Assembly: GCF_004122035.1 (NCBI RefSeq)
Contig: NZ_SAXA01000017.1
Location: 1-64,000, forward strand
Direction of reading: 5' to 3'
From: Ancylomarina salipaludis
GTDB lineage: Bacteria > Bacteroidota > Bacteroidia > Bacteroidales > Marinifilaceae
Length of the DNA stretch: 64,000 nucleotides
The notes under the pieces are model-generated. The model did no database searches. It had not been told where the DNA came from and worked only from the letters and a program-made list of their open reading frames with translations. Every line of letters begins with the position of its first letter. The stretch's first letter is position 1. Shown here piece by piece: positions 29,087 to 36,821 of the stretch. The position numbers and the translations under genes were made by a program.

Positions 29087-30028
29087 TTAATTCCACTCAA
29101 CAATTGTTCCTCTATTTTTATCCAAATAGGCTGTAGGTATTATTTTCTTTATATGTTCGCCTAATAAATTCAATAATTTATTCTTCGAATAATGTCGGGA
29201 ATAAACTAAACTAACCTCTCGTAAAGGGTGCAAATTAGTAAAAGACTTCACTTGTTTCAACTTTTCAGCCGACATATACTGAGTTGCCAGTTCTGGAATT
29301 AATGTAAATCCACCTTCCCTGTCAATAATTTTCATAAGTGTCTCCAAAGAATTACTCTCAAATTCGAAAGGCAACTCCTGATGTTGCATACTATGCATAT
29401 CACAAAGATTGATTACCTGGTTGCGGAAACAATGTCCATCTCCCAACATCCAAATTTCAGAAGTGGCAATATCCTTCACCTCAATAATCTCCTGCTTTAG
29501 TATTTCATGATCTTTATGGGCATAAATCATCATCTCTTCATAAAACAAGGGCACTTCTTTAATTTTATCATCCCGTAATGGAGTAACAAAAACGCCCACG
29601 TCCAATAAATCTTTTTTCAGTGCTGAAACAATATCATCAGAAACCATTTCTTCAACCTCGACTTTTACATCGGGGTAGTTTCTGATATAATCCCCAATAA
29701 ACATTGGTAATAAGAAAGGAGCCAAAGTCGGGATAATTCCAATTTTCAGACTTCCCTCAACTGTATCTCTGTGGTTTTTGACAATCTCATCGATCTTTTT
29801 CGACTCTCCTAATATAATACGAGCCTGCTCTATTATCTGTATGCCTACATCAGTTGGAATAATGGGTTGCTTACTTCTATCGAAAATGGTGATATCTAAA
29901 AATTCCTCCAATTTCTTAATTTGCATACTCAAAGTTGGCTGTGTAATAAAACAGCTATCTGCAGCTGTAGCAAAATGCCGATGTGTATCAACTGCTACAA
30001 TATATTCCAGTTGTGTTAATGTGACCAT
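29087..30028 (-). CDS. oxyR: Hydrogen-peroxide sensor/regulator OxyR
   Basis: A 313-residue LysR-type regulator. The N-terminal winged helix-turn-helix (about 1-60, with FITQPTLSMQIKKLEE) is followed by the effector domain. The redox pair is seen as C200 and C209 in GDGHCFRNQVINLC, which matches C199/C208 of E. coli OxyR and separates it from other LysR regulators. Oxidation by peroxide forms a disulfide and activates transcription. In Bacteroides OxyR controls dps, katB and ahpCF. A dps gene lies 6 kb away here. A divergent RNA candidate shares its promoter region. Confidence 0.95.
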   Translation of the reverse strand: MVTLTQLEYIVAVDTHRHFATAADSCFITQPTLSMQIKKLEEFLDITIFDRSKQPIIPTDVGIQIIEQARIILGESKKIDEIVKNHRDTVEGSLKIGIIPTLAPFLLPMFIGDYIRNYPDVKVEVEEMVSDDIVSALKKDLLDVGVFVTPLRDDKIKEVPLFYEEMMIYAHKDHEILKQEIIEVKDIATSEIWMLGDGHCFRNQVINLCDMHSMQHQELPFEFESNSLETLMKIIDREGGFTLIPELATQYMSAEKLKQVKSFTNLHPLREVSLVYSRHYSKNKLLNLLGEHIKKIIPTAYLDKNRGTIVEWN

Positions 30029-30062
30029 ATGGGATTATTTTGTTTTATATTGATTTTAAACA

Positions 30063-30096
30063 CAAATATAAAAATAATCTATTGCTTTATATACAA
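30063..30096 (-). promoter_or_regulatory. Candidate promoter of oxyR
   Basis: On the minus strand the -7 box is TATATTTG (30063-30070), and a TTG -33 element lies at 30094-30096 with a 23-bp spacer. The predicted start gives a leader of about 28 nt. An inverted repeat TATTG-N9-CAATA (30080-30098) overlaps the -33 element and could be an autoregulatory site. Confidence 0.5.
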
Positions 30097-30102
30097 TATT
30101 GA

Positions 30103-30134
30103 TTTGATTGATGTTTAGAACTATTCTATATTTG
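30103..30134 (+). promoter_or_regulatory. Candidate promoter of the oxyR-divergent RNA
   Basis: TTTG (30103-30106), a 20-bp spacer and TATATTTG (30127-30134) match the full Bacteroidota housekeeping promoter consensus. A short dyad TAGAA-N3-TTCTA (30116-30128) sits between the boxes and could be an operator. Confidence 0.65.
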
Positions 30135-30140
30135 TATAAA

Positions 30141-30375
30141 CTATATAAGATAAACCTATGTATCAGATACACTCTGATATTAATTATTAGTCTATCAGCT
30201 CTGTAATAACTAAAATTTAGCATTAGTTATCATATTTAAAGAGCCGAAAAAAGTCTCAGATTACAGGTTTTACTTTTTTCAAGAACAATACGACTGTTTG
30301 ATAGTTTTTTGTTATTTAAGTTTTATTAGATGTTTGGGTTAAACAGCCGGAAGGATATCCTTCCGGCTGTTTTTG
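30141..30375 (+). ncRNA. Candidate structured small RNA divergent from oxyR
   Basis: Bounded by a consensus promoter and a strong terminator hairpin, predicted length about 235 nt. It contains three perfect stem-loops: TATCAG/CTGATA (30161-30179), ATAACTAA/TTAGTTAT (30206-30230) and GAAAAAAGT/ACTTTTTTC (30246-30280). No credible CDS exists: the longest ATG frames are a 10-codon peptide (30158) and a 20-codon one (30330) that runs past the terminator. In enterobacteria the peroxide-induced small RNA oxyS is encoded next to and divergently from oxyR. The arrangement here is the same, but sequence homology cannot be claimed. A 6S-type RNA is an alternative. Confidence 0.55.
30341..30375 (+). terminator. 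Terminator of the oxyR-divergent RNA
   Basis: A perfect palindrome with arms AAACAGCCGGAAGG and CCTTCCGGCTGTTT around ATAT, followed by T residues. It is one of the strongest hairpins in the window and has no annotated gene upstream on the plus strand. Confidence 0.85.
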
Positions 30376-30523
30376 TGTGCGGAAAAAAATAACTGAACTT
30401 TAATCAACACAGCACCAACATGTTGTTTAGCAACAATGCTAAACAGCAGATTTCAGGCTTAAAAAATATACTATTTTAGCGAACGATTTTGAAATTCATA
30501 AGCTCAATATAAACTGAATAACA

Positions 30524-31840
30524 ATGCAACAAGGTATTAAAACAGTATCATTCGAAGAAGCTGCAAAGGTGATTAAATCAGGTGACAGAGTACACCTACA
30601 CTCAGTTGCACTAGCGCCACACAAATTTATCAACGCAATGTGTGAGCGTGGCCGTAATGGTGAAATCTACGATGTAACCATTCAACATATCCACACCGAA
30701 GGTCCGGCTCCATATGCTGCGACTGAGTTCGAGGGTATTTTCAACCTTGAATCTTTATTCGTTGGATCAAATGTTCGTAAACAAACTCAAGCTGGATACG
30801 CAGATTATATCCCTGTTTTCTTAAGTGAAACTCAGCAATTAATCCGCGAGGGCTATTTAAATGTAAACGTAACTGTTGTTCAGGTTAGTCCTCCGGACAA
30901 GCATGGCTATGTATCATTAGGAACTTCTGTAGATTGTTCTCGTGCAGCTGTTGAAATGGCTGACACAGTTGTGGCAATTATCAATCCAAACGTACCTCGT
31001 GCTTTTGGTGATGCCATGATGCCATTAAACTCTTTCGATATCTTCTGTGAAGATGATTCTCCACTTATCGAGCATCACAATGCACCTCTTTCTGATATTG
31101 ATATCGCTATTGGTAAAAATGTAGCAAACCTTATTCCTGACGGAGCATGTCTTCAGATGGGGATTGGTGGTATTCCGAATGCAGTATTAGCTCAGCTTGG
31201 TAACCACAAAAATCTTGGTGTTCACACTGAAATGTTTGCTGACGGCCTTCTTCCTTTGGTTGAAAGCGGTGTTGTAAACGGTATGAACAAAAAACTGGAC
31301 AAGGGTAAGATTGTAGCAGGTTTCCTAATGGGAACAAAAGAGCTTTACGATTTCGTTGACGATAACCCAGGCGTATTGATGATGGATGTTGCTTACACCA
31401 ATGGTGTTCACATTATCAAACAAAACCCTAAGGTTTGTGCAATCAACTCAGCTCTTTCTATCGACCTAACTGGTCAGGTTTGTGCTGACTCAATCGGAAC
31501 AACTCACTACTCAGGTGTAGGTGGACAGATTGACTTTACTCGTGGAGCTGCTGCTTCAGAAGGTGGTGTACCAATCATCGCAATGCCTTCAGTAACAGGT
31601 AAAGGTGTTTCTAAAATTACACCAACTCTTTTACAAGGATCAGGTGTTGTAACAACACGTAACAACATGCGTTGGTTTGCTACTGAGCACGGTTGTGTTA
31701 ACCTATTTGGTAAAACACTTCAGCAAAGAGCTAAAGCAATTATCTCGGTTGCTCACCCAGACTTTAGAGAAGAGTTAGATAGAGCTGCTTTCGAAAGATT
31801 CGGTTCTCACTACCATTTCGTAAATTCATTGGTGAAATAA
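30524..31840 (+). CDS. Acetyl-CoA hydrolase/transferase family CoA-transferase
   Basis: A 438-residue family I CoA-transferase that moves CoA between acyl groups through a glutamyl-CoA intermediate. The catalytic glutamate is E236 in GVHTEMFADG. The GIGGIPNAV glycine loop and the GVGGQIDFTRGA motif are conserved. Length and motifs resemble butyryl-CoA or 4-hydroxybutyrate:acetate CoA-transferases and also succinyl-CoA:acetate enzymes, so the acyl donor is uncertain. It starts with ATG, stands alone and ends at a bidirectional terminator. It could release acids made by the 2-oxoacid oxidoreductase pathway at 57-62 kb. Confidence 0.9.
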   Translation: MQQGIKTVSFEEAAKVIKSGDRVHLHSVALAPHKFINAMCERGRNGEIYDVTIQHIHTEGPAPYAATEFEGIFNLESLFVGSNVRKQTQAGYADYIPVFLSETQQLIREGYLNVNVTVVQVSPPDKHGYVSLGTSVDCSRAAVEMADTVVAIINPNVPRAFGDAMMPLNSFDIFCEDDSPLIEHHNAPLSDIDIAIGKNVANLIPDGACLQMGIGGIPNAVLAQLGNHKNLGVHTEMFADGLLPLVESGVVNGMNKKLDKGKIVAGFLMGTKELYDFVDDNPGVLMMDVAYTNGVHIIKQNPKVCAINSALSIDLTGQVCADSIGTTHYSGVGGQIDFTRGAAASEGGVPIIAMPSVTGKGVSKITPTLLQGSGVVTTRNNMRWFATEHGCVNLFGKTLQQRAKAIISVAHPDFREELDRAAFERFGSHYHFVNSLVK

Positions 31841-36034: not shown

Positions 36035-36502
36035 CTATCGAAGATAAGAGTTCAACATCCACAGGGTTTTCTCCGTTTCTGAGATATAGTCACTCATTAA
36101 GCTAACAGTTCCTTCATCTTCAGCATCACCTGCCAAACTTAAAATCTCTCTCTCTTTCAAAATTAAAACGGAGAAATTTTTAACGACAACTTCTATACCT
36201 TCAATTCCATTTGTAATGCCTTTGGCTTCTTTTAGCTCAGATACTTTCAAATAATCTGAAAAGGTATGCAAGGGTTCTGACTCAAGAGTTAAAATTCTTT
36301 CTGCAATTTCATCAACCTTAATAACAGCATCGTTGTATAATTCTTCAAATTTCAAGTGCAATTCAAAAAATTCCCGCCCTTTTATATTCCAGTGAAGTCC
36401 TCTTAAATTCTGATAAAACATCTGATAATTTGCCAATAAGTCGTTTAATTTTGCACTTAAGACTTTCGCTTTTTCCTGATCTATTCCGATTAAATTTTTC
36501 AT
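36035..36502 (-). CDS. dps: DNA-protection/ferritin-like protein Dps
   Basis: A 155-residue four-helix-bundle protein that forms a 12-mer storing iron and detoxifying peroxide. The ferroxidase signature is visible as HWNIKGREFFELHLKFEELYND (about 39-60), with the conserved histidine, aspartate and glutamate ligands. In Bacteroides dps is under OxyR control during oxygen exposure, and oxyR lies 6 kb away here. The 5' leader holds a GCCCGATT/AATCGGGC hairpin (36532-36557) about 30 nt before the start. Confidence 0.95.
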   Translation of the reverse strand: MKNLIGIDQEKAKVLSAKLNDLLANYQMFYQNLRGLHWNIKGREFFELHLKFEELYNDAVIKVDEIAERILTLESEPLHTFSDYLKVSELKEAKGITNGIEGIEVVVKNFSVLILKEREILSLAGDAEDEGTVSLMSDYISETEKTLWMLNSYLR

Positions 36503-36821
36503 CTTGATTTCTATTTTAATGATAGGCTATTGCCCGATTTAATTTCAACAATCGGGCTTAACTTGATTATTTCTAATTGCTTATATTAACATTACGAAGA
36601 TACAAATAAATCACACATAGATCAAATTGATTGTTTTTATATTTCCATAGATTAATACTATTCATCATTCCAAAGACTACAGACAGGGCTCTTGATATTT
36701 TATTCTGAAAAATTTATCAACTTCTTTTATTCACTTTTCAAATATCTTCTCCCGACATCGTTTCCGCTCAAATATTCTTTATTTAAGTGAGAGTAGATCA
36801 CAACGATAGAATAAAAATCAC
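36503..36821. other. Divergent gap dps/sulP
   Basis: Part of the 359-bp gap between the two genes. It holds the dps leader hairpin (arms at 36532-36539 and 36550-36557), a near-consensus minus-strand -7 box (TTTATTTG, 36603-36610) for dps, and a half-symmetric GTGA-N7-TCAC near the sulP promoter (36787-36801). No ORF is seen. Confidence 0.35.

Follow-up and report, generated by a model that had tools for sequence, protein, structure and literature searches.

The region upstream of oxyR in Ancylomarina salipaludis raises the question of whether a member of the Bacteroidota carries a small RNA (sRNA) gene divergent from oxyR, in the position that oxyS occupies. A preliminary description had proposed such an RNA from a promoter, three stem-loops and a terminator hairpin. 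We analyzed the locus in a window of 64,000 nucleotides (the whole stretch of DNA studied, to which all coordinates refer) and compared it with related genomes. The RNA gene is present in a single copy between two protein-coding genes:

29087 to 30028, minus strand: oxyR, encoding a LysR-type regulator of 313 amino acids with the two-cysteine motif GHCFRNQVINLC.
30140 to 30375, plus strand: the small RNA gene, with the start predicted from promoter spacing and the end from the terminator.
30524 to 31840, plus strand: an acetyl-CoA hydrolase/CoA-transferase gene, a neighbour of the sRNA that is not required for it.

The top NCBIfam match of the oxyR product is OxyR (215 bits, below the 329-bit cut-off), its HTH_1 and LysR_substrate domains score above their cut-offs and its top PDB match is an OxyR. 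We take the GHCFRNQVINLC motif to correspond to the region around C199 and C208 in the E. coli protein. For the CoA-transferase gene, the nearest NCBIfam family is butyryl-CoA:acetate CoA-transferase, below its cut-off. Both flanking genes point away from the terminator of the sRNA, an argument for an independent transcript.

Promoter elements can be recognized on both strands:

30063 to 30070, minus strand: the -7 element of the presumed oxyR promoter, TATATTTG on the minus strand, which is CAAATATA on the plus strand.
30103 to 30134, plus strand: the sRNA promoter TTTG-N20-TATATTTG, with TTTG at 30103 to 30106 and TATATTTG at 30127 to 30134.

The sRNA promoter is thus present as it was first described, and TTTG-N20-TANNTTTG is found at all 24 sRNA loci in the family Marinifilaceae. 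The claim that the oxyR and sRNA promoters lie 6 bp apart fared less evenly. We assume from the Bacteroidota consensus that 30063-30070 is an oxyR promoter element; its -7 sequence persists in 14 of the 15 aligned loci (the exception is L017), but the -33 element is poor, the closest CAAT being 23 bp away. The distance from the sRNA promoter to the oxyR start is 64-77 nt in the family loci and 329 nt in genome G015.

To find which portion of the RNA is conserved, we compared 15 loci (L003-L017), in which the sRNA gene measures 152-266 nt. Three portions can be distinguished in the window:

30140 to 30291, plus strand: a variable 5' part that contains the three stem-loops of the preliminary description, not conserved between genera.
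30296 to 30340, plus strand: a near-invariant U-rich core of about 45 nt, within which a 28-mer is the same in 23 of 23 family matches.
30341 to 30375, plus strand: an intrinsic terminator, a perfect 14-bp hairpin (30341-30372) followed by TTTTTG.

The core reads ATAGTTTGATAG-T(n)-GTTATTTAAGTTTTATTAGATGTTTGGGTT with few changes in the 15 loci, and the terminator hairpin follows directly 3'. The preliminary description had noticed the 14-bp terminator hairpin correctly and had missed two elements, the core at 30296-30340 and an OxyR-type box at 30068-30103 (below). The terminator also carries the covariation. Seven of its nine modelled pairs have changed on both sides, and 95.4% of the cells are paired (12 distinct rows). 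Its covariation score was reached by none of 500 shuffles and exceeds that of every slid version, although one of the five measures (further pair types) was not above the shuffles (208 of 500).

The three 5' stem-loops do appear in the minimum-energy fold of the window sequence, and the predicted fold of 30140-30375 (-61.3 kcal/mol, z -4.76) is better than 200 of 200 dinucleotide shuffles. The 5' part alone, however, is only weakly better than shuffles in the window (z -1.8), and across the 15 loci its z ranges from +0.3 to -3.8, with nothing remarkable about the fold in most species. Promoter and core are 91 to 204 nt apart, and the intervening sequence is too variable between genera for confident alignment. 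Because the 5' part aligns poorly between genera and folds unremarkably in most species, we regard the three stems as lineage-specific; covariation had been proposed as their test, but the stems are not conserved and the covariation that we measured is that of the terminator. Judged by the alignments, the conserved portion of the sRNA is the core with the terminator.

The gene does not look coding. Reading frames longer than about 20 codons had been said to be absent; the interval holds a 32-codon TTG frame on the plus strand, starting in the promoter, and one of 55 codons on the minus strand, while the single frame of at least 20 codons that begins within the transcript (at 30330) extends beyond its end. 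We found no conserved reading frame within the predicted transcript in these loci, and the core shows length changes of 1-3 nt.

How widespread is this RNA? A search with the core 28-mer, allowing 3 mismatches, gave 23 matches, all without mismatch; G003, whose core has a 2-nt insertion and is not caught by the pattern, was counted as the 24th genome. The core thus occurs in 24 of 56 Marinifilaceae genomes, with one copy in each. Every genome sampled from seven genera (Ancylomarina, Labilibaculum, Marinifilum and their kin), 24 in all, has it, and the pattern search of the 56 family genomes found it in none of the 32 genomes from the other ten genera. We also sought OxyR in 58 genomes and read the upstream regions of 30 oxyR loci. 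The core segment is present in 15 of them (L003-L017) and was not seen in the other 15 regions read, two of which have a divergent peroxidase gene (AhpC in L029, peroxiredoxin in L032).

Broader searches returned the same group of bacteria. The exact core 32-mer occurs in 19 contigs of a collection of 84,980 species, all titled Marinifilum, Labilibaculum, Ancylomarina or Marinifilaceae bacterium, and these contigs overlap with the 24 family genomes. A core 24-mer with 1 mismatch allowed matched only the window's own genome among 395 genomes of the phylum. A covariance model of core and terminator (R1), run on 393 genomes of the order, scored 95.9 bits in the window's own genome and found nothing convincing outside the family; distant relatives may be missed in this search because 11 candidates per genome were scored. 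Four other R1 matches (36.5-42.6 bits) were judged from their alignments and neighbours to be chance terminators, and one of these sequences (L097) starts 116 bases ahead of its match, so that its upstream context is not visible. Comparison of genomes establishes the conservation of the sRNA, its synteny with oxyR and its covarying terminator.

One locus was set apart during this survey. In G024 (L008, G024:C1:2627288-2631223), most 150-base windows of oxyR and of the CoA-transferase gene match Ancylomarina G001 at 100% identity, and the sRNA part is 98-99% identical to that of G013. This locus probably arose by chimeric assembly or by recombination and is not an independent observation.

The frequent presence of the CoA-transferase gene downstream on the same strand (22 of the 24 genomes) is what one would expect if the RNA were a cis-acting 5' leader of that gene, attenuator- or riboswitch-like, whose hairpin chooses between termination and readthrough. 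Two genomes speak against such a leader, since core, promoter and terminator are all kept in G015, where the next gene downstream of the sRNA is a glutathione peroxidase gene (L086 5194-5814) instead, and in G827, which has no CoA-transferase gene in the 2003 bases downstream. The distance between core and gene is moreover variable (173 to 487 nt), and conserved sequence of its own lies upstream of the CoA-transferase gene:

30426 to 30443, no strand: the palindrome TTTAGCA-N4-TGCTAAA, 5' of the CoA-transferase gene, with a -7-like element after it at 30467-30479.

Sequence similar to this palindrome region is found in loci that have the CoA-transferase gene, and palindrome and -7-like element are probably that gene's own promoter region. 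The contexts in G015 and G827 and this separate upstream sequence make a leader quite unlikely. The palindrome itself is likely to be an operator.

Could the RNA belong to a known family? The preliminary description had suggested a covariance search against Rfam, and no family matched the element. At the gathering threshold the whole window yielded 3 tRNAs only, and with E<=10 no family fits the element in the 701 bases round the locus (29900-30600) or in the 15 loci. The OxyS model had no match in the window at the gathering threshold, nor in 29900-30600 or the 15 loci at E<=10. A 6S-type RNA, which the preliminary description had offered as the alternative and with which length and structure are loosely compatible, is the least credible explanation of all: 6S models have no match at the locus, and all 4 genomes tested carry 6S-Flavo-like candidates (RF01685) at other places, which score 45.5-47 bits against a cut-off of 85 bits. 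The candidate in the window's genome (L194, G000:C45:241929-242054, 46.5 bits; similar ones in G013, G015 and G032) may be a 6S RNA that has diverged.

The FopS/GibS family of Bacteroidota deserves a closer look, because FopS is among the weak Rfam matches (23.5 bits) and ATTAGAT precedes the terminator in both RNAs. The FopS cut-off is 56 bits, though, and no FopS match was found in the 15 loci at E<=10. Similarity to FopS seeds was equalled by 1063-1843 of 3000 shuffles, and FopS-like tandem copies, below the cut-off, are located elsewhere in the genome. We consider it very improbable that the sRNA is a member of this family. The tandem FopS-like genes form an observation in their own right: the window's genome has four copies 265-278 bp apart (L198 962-1847, G000:C54:89237-90122), and arrays are also present in G032 (L197, L201, G032:C1). 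These copies score 33-39 bits against the 56-bit cut-off and have a conserved TTTTTCATAG...TTAGATTTAGGTTAGTAA before the terminator, which suggests that Marinifilaceae, too, have RNAs of the FopS kind.

The connection between the sRNA and OxyR is suggested by the second element that had been missed:

30068 to 30103, no strand: an OxyR-type box of two 15-bp halves, 30068-30082 and 30089-30103, whose starts are 21 bp apart.

The box overlaps the -7 element of oxyR and abuts the -33 element of the sRNA promoter. A typical box reads ATAAANAWTATCTAT-N6-ATAAACAWTATTGAT, followed by the TTG that completes the -33 TTTG. As had been claimed for the window, the sRNA gene is divergent from oxyR, and this holds at all 24 family loci, each with a box within 3 mismatches. 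The same box arrangement precedes ahpC in L029 and the peroxiredoxin gene in L032.

In order to assess whether the box marks other genes, we searched 15 genomes with the box pattern, in which the -7 element was not included. At 3 mismatches there were 39 sites, compared with 2 for the reversed pattern: 15 at the sRNA locus, 13 before dihydroorotate-dehydrogenase (DHOD)-like genes, 5 at AhpC, 1 at Dps, 1 at a peroxiredoxin and 4 others. The 15 sRNA sites are matches by construction, because the 6-bp spacing was taken from the sRNA promoters and L029. A pattern with 7-bp spacing had no site in the 15 genomes and was dropped. At N20 from the box, TANNTTTG is perfect at every sRNA site (15 of 15), at every AhpC site (5 of 5) and at 12 of the 13 DHOD-like sites. 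The Dps site matches 5 of the 6 bases, the four unrelated sites match 0-3, and the peroxiredoxin site (L209) is without a -7 element (2 of 6). The AhpC sites are spread over 5 of the 15 genomes and the Dps site is in 1 of 15; four of the AhpC proteins, each searched at full length, scored above the AhpC cut-off. No ahpC site was found in the window's own genus with this pattern (3 mismatches, 15 genomes). The promoter geometry and the box are therefore common features established by comparison.

The second-best OxyR-type site in the window lies before a dps-like gene:

36035 to 36502, minus strand: a dps-like gene, 36035 to 36661 with its box region; the box runs from 36661 to 36623 with 4 mismatches and has TATCTTCG at N20.

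Its product has a Ferritin-like domain above the cut-off and no NCBIfam match at E<=1e-20; the name Dps rests on weak Dps matches of the G004 orthologue. The DHOD-like gene has a box in 13 of 15 genomes (L062-L066, L068, L069, L071-L075, L210) and is likely to be a new member of the OxyR regulon, which would thereby be widened.

We read the element as an OxyR box because in P. gingivalis both ahpC and dps are OxyR-dependent, according to the excerpted text of PMC6231650. Since pattern sites also precede ahpC, dps, peroxiredoxin and DHOD-like genes, the comparison suggests an OxyR regulon that includes the sRNA. The position of the box against the -33 element suggests activation of the sRNA, and autorepression of oxyR is likely because the first half of the box overlaps the oxyR -7 element. 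One might object that this overlap, in a box that lies between both promoters, is all there is, that is, that the box serves oxyR autoregulation only and that the sRNA is constitutive or otherwise controlled and merely adjoins oxyR. We find this unlikely, for the spacing of the box to the -33 element equals that in the ahpC and DHOD-like promoters, and in G015 the box (3 mismatches) stays by the sRNA, 329 nt from oxyR.

We therefore favour, with reasonable but not high confidence, an independently evolved, OxyR-controlled, trans-acting sRNA divergent from oxyR, an analogue and not a homologue of OxyS. The OxyS-like RNA of the preliminary description thus gains strong comparative support (divergence at 24 of 24 loci, a kept promoter, a common box) but loses the three stems on which it had been based. 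From sequence we infer its transcription, the binding of OxyR, peroxide induction, pairing and targets. Oxidised OxyR would bind the box at 30068-30103, repress oxyR (the box overlaps its -7 element) and activate the sRNA promoter from immediately upstream of its -33 element. The sRNA would belong to a regulon with ahpC, dps and the DHOD-like gene and would work in trans through its invariant U-rich core. OxyR of P. gingivalis supports ahpCF, dps and sodB anaerobically and without induction by peroxide, as far as the excerpt of PMC6231650 goes; peroxide induction of the sRNA can therefore not be assumed and is a guess.

The core is presumably a pairing or protein-binding element, both being equally possible, and it is partly paired in the predicted folds (mean unpaired 0.26-0.48). 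In the proposed mechanism it would most likely pair with A-rich translation starts of mRNAs and block translation. Blocking of initiation is the natural model because the complement of the core resembles the A-rich starts of Bacteroidota and because FopS, in the available part of PMC11697453, offers a precedent.

We searched for an 18-nt core complement in 9 of the 24 sRNA-bearing genomes. Among the matches listed, core complementarity was at the level of chance in these 9 genomes (158 non-self matches against 152 for the reversed pattern). Twenty places, chosen by eye for their recurrence among the matches listed, were read as candidate targets, and no convincing target emerged. The core-mRNA duplexes of the candidates were no stronger than those of ordinary translation starts (48 starts in the window, with a best duplex of -24.1 and five at -20.1 or better). 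The best candidate is an acyl-CoA-dehydrogenase-like gene, whose starts have a perfect core complement of 14-16 nt in 6 of 18 genomes (L175-L178, L180, L183), with duplex energies from -15.8 to -20.8. This gene is possibly a lineage-specific target. We dropped it as evidence because the site is absent in 12 of the 18 genomes, including the window's own, and the energies are within the background. In the window's own genus, the DHOD-like starts (mostly 16 nt with one mismatch, -17.2 to -18.0) were likewise dropped as target evidence.

How the circuit might have arisen is more speculative. The sRNA of G015 stands ahead of a glutathione peroxidase gene, and two distant relatives have a peroxidase gene divergent from oxyR. 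A more far-reaching reading is that the oxyR-oxyS circuit was invented convergently in a second phylum, the sRNA having perhaps originated in the leader of a peroxidase gene formerly at this place; we regard this scenario as rather doubtful. If the favoured reading is confirmed, Bacteroidota evolved a divergent OxyR-controlled sRNA independently, and would thereby have a regulatory RNA linked to redox state, for which promoter, box and core are predicted. A dedicated sRNA for a peroxide sensor would then suggest itself as a recurrent regulatory design. The kind, an OxyR-controlled sRNA beside oxyR, is already known; the sequence family appears to be new in Bacteroidota, and among the matches listed in the open-licence PMC literature we found no report of an OxyR-linked sRNA in this phylum.

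Among known systems, FopS/GibS of Bacteroides (RF04319, RF04182) resembles the sRNA in its Bacteroidota promoter and in a conserved segment before the terminator hairpin. FopS is about 65-70 nt long, has 14 copies and a seed at its 5' end, is induced by bile salts, and pairs near start codons, blocking translation initiation (PMC11697453, in the part available), whereas the sRNA described here is single copy and oxyR-linked and has an unrelated core. PG_RS02100 of P. gingivalis was set aside as unrelated, since in the excerpt of PMC6231650 it is flanked by other genes and contains a protein domain. The oxyR-peroxidase loci L029 (AhpC) and L032 (peroxiredoxin) share the box and promoter geometry, but their divergent product is a peroxidase and not an RNA; divergent oxyR-ahpCF is also described for some Prevotella in the excerpted text of PMC7999485.

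In OxyS of E. coli and Salmonella, as here, the RNA gene lies beside oxyR and is divergent from it, and an apparent OxyR box lies between the two promoters at our locus. The E. coli OxyR box lies between the oxyR and oxyS promoters, over the oxyR promoter. The starts of the box halves are 21 bp apart here, compared with 22 bp in E. coli. The position of OxyS beside oxyR and its induction by OxyR are described in the available portions of PMC11975290 and PMC12101431. Unlike OxyS, the sRNA of Marinifilaceae belongs to another phylum, uses another type of promoter, has a long variable 5' part and no Rfam match, and its conserved element is the U-rich core ahead of the terminator.
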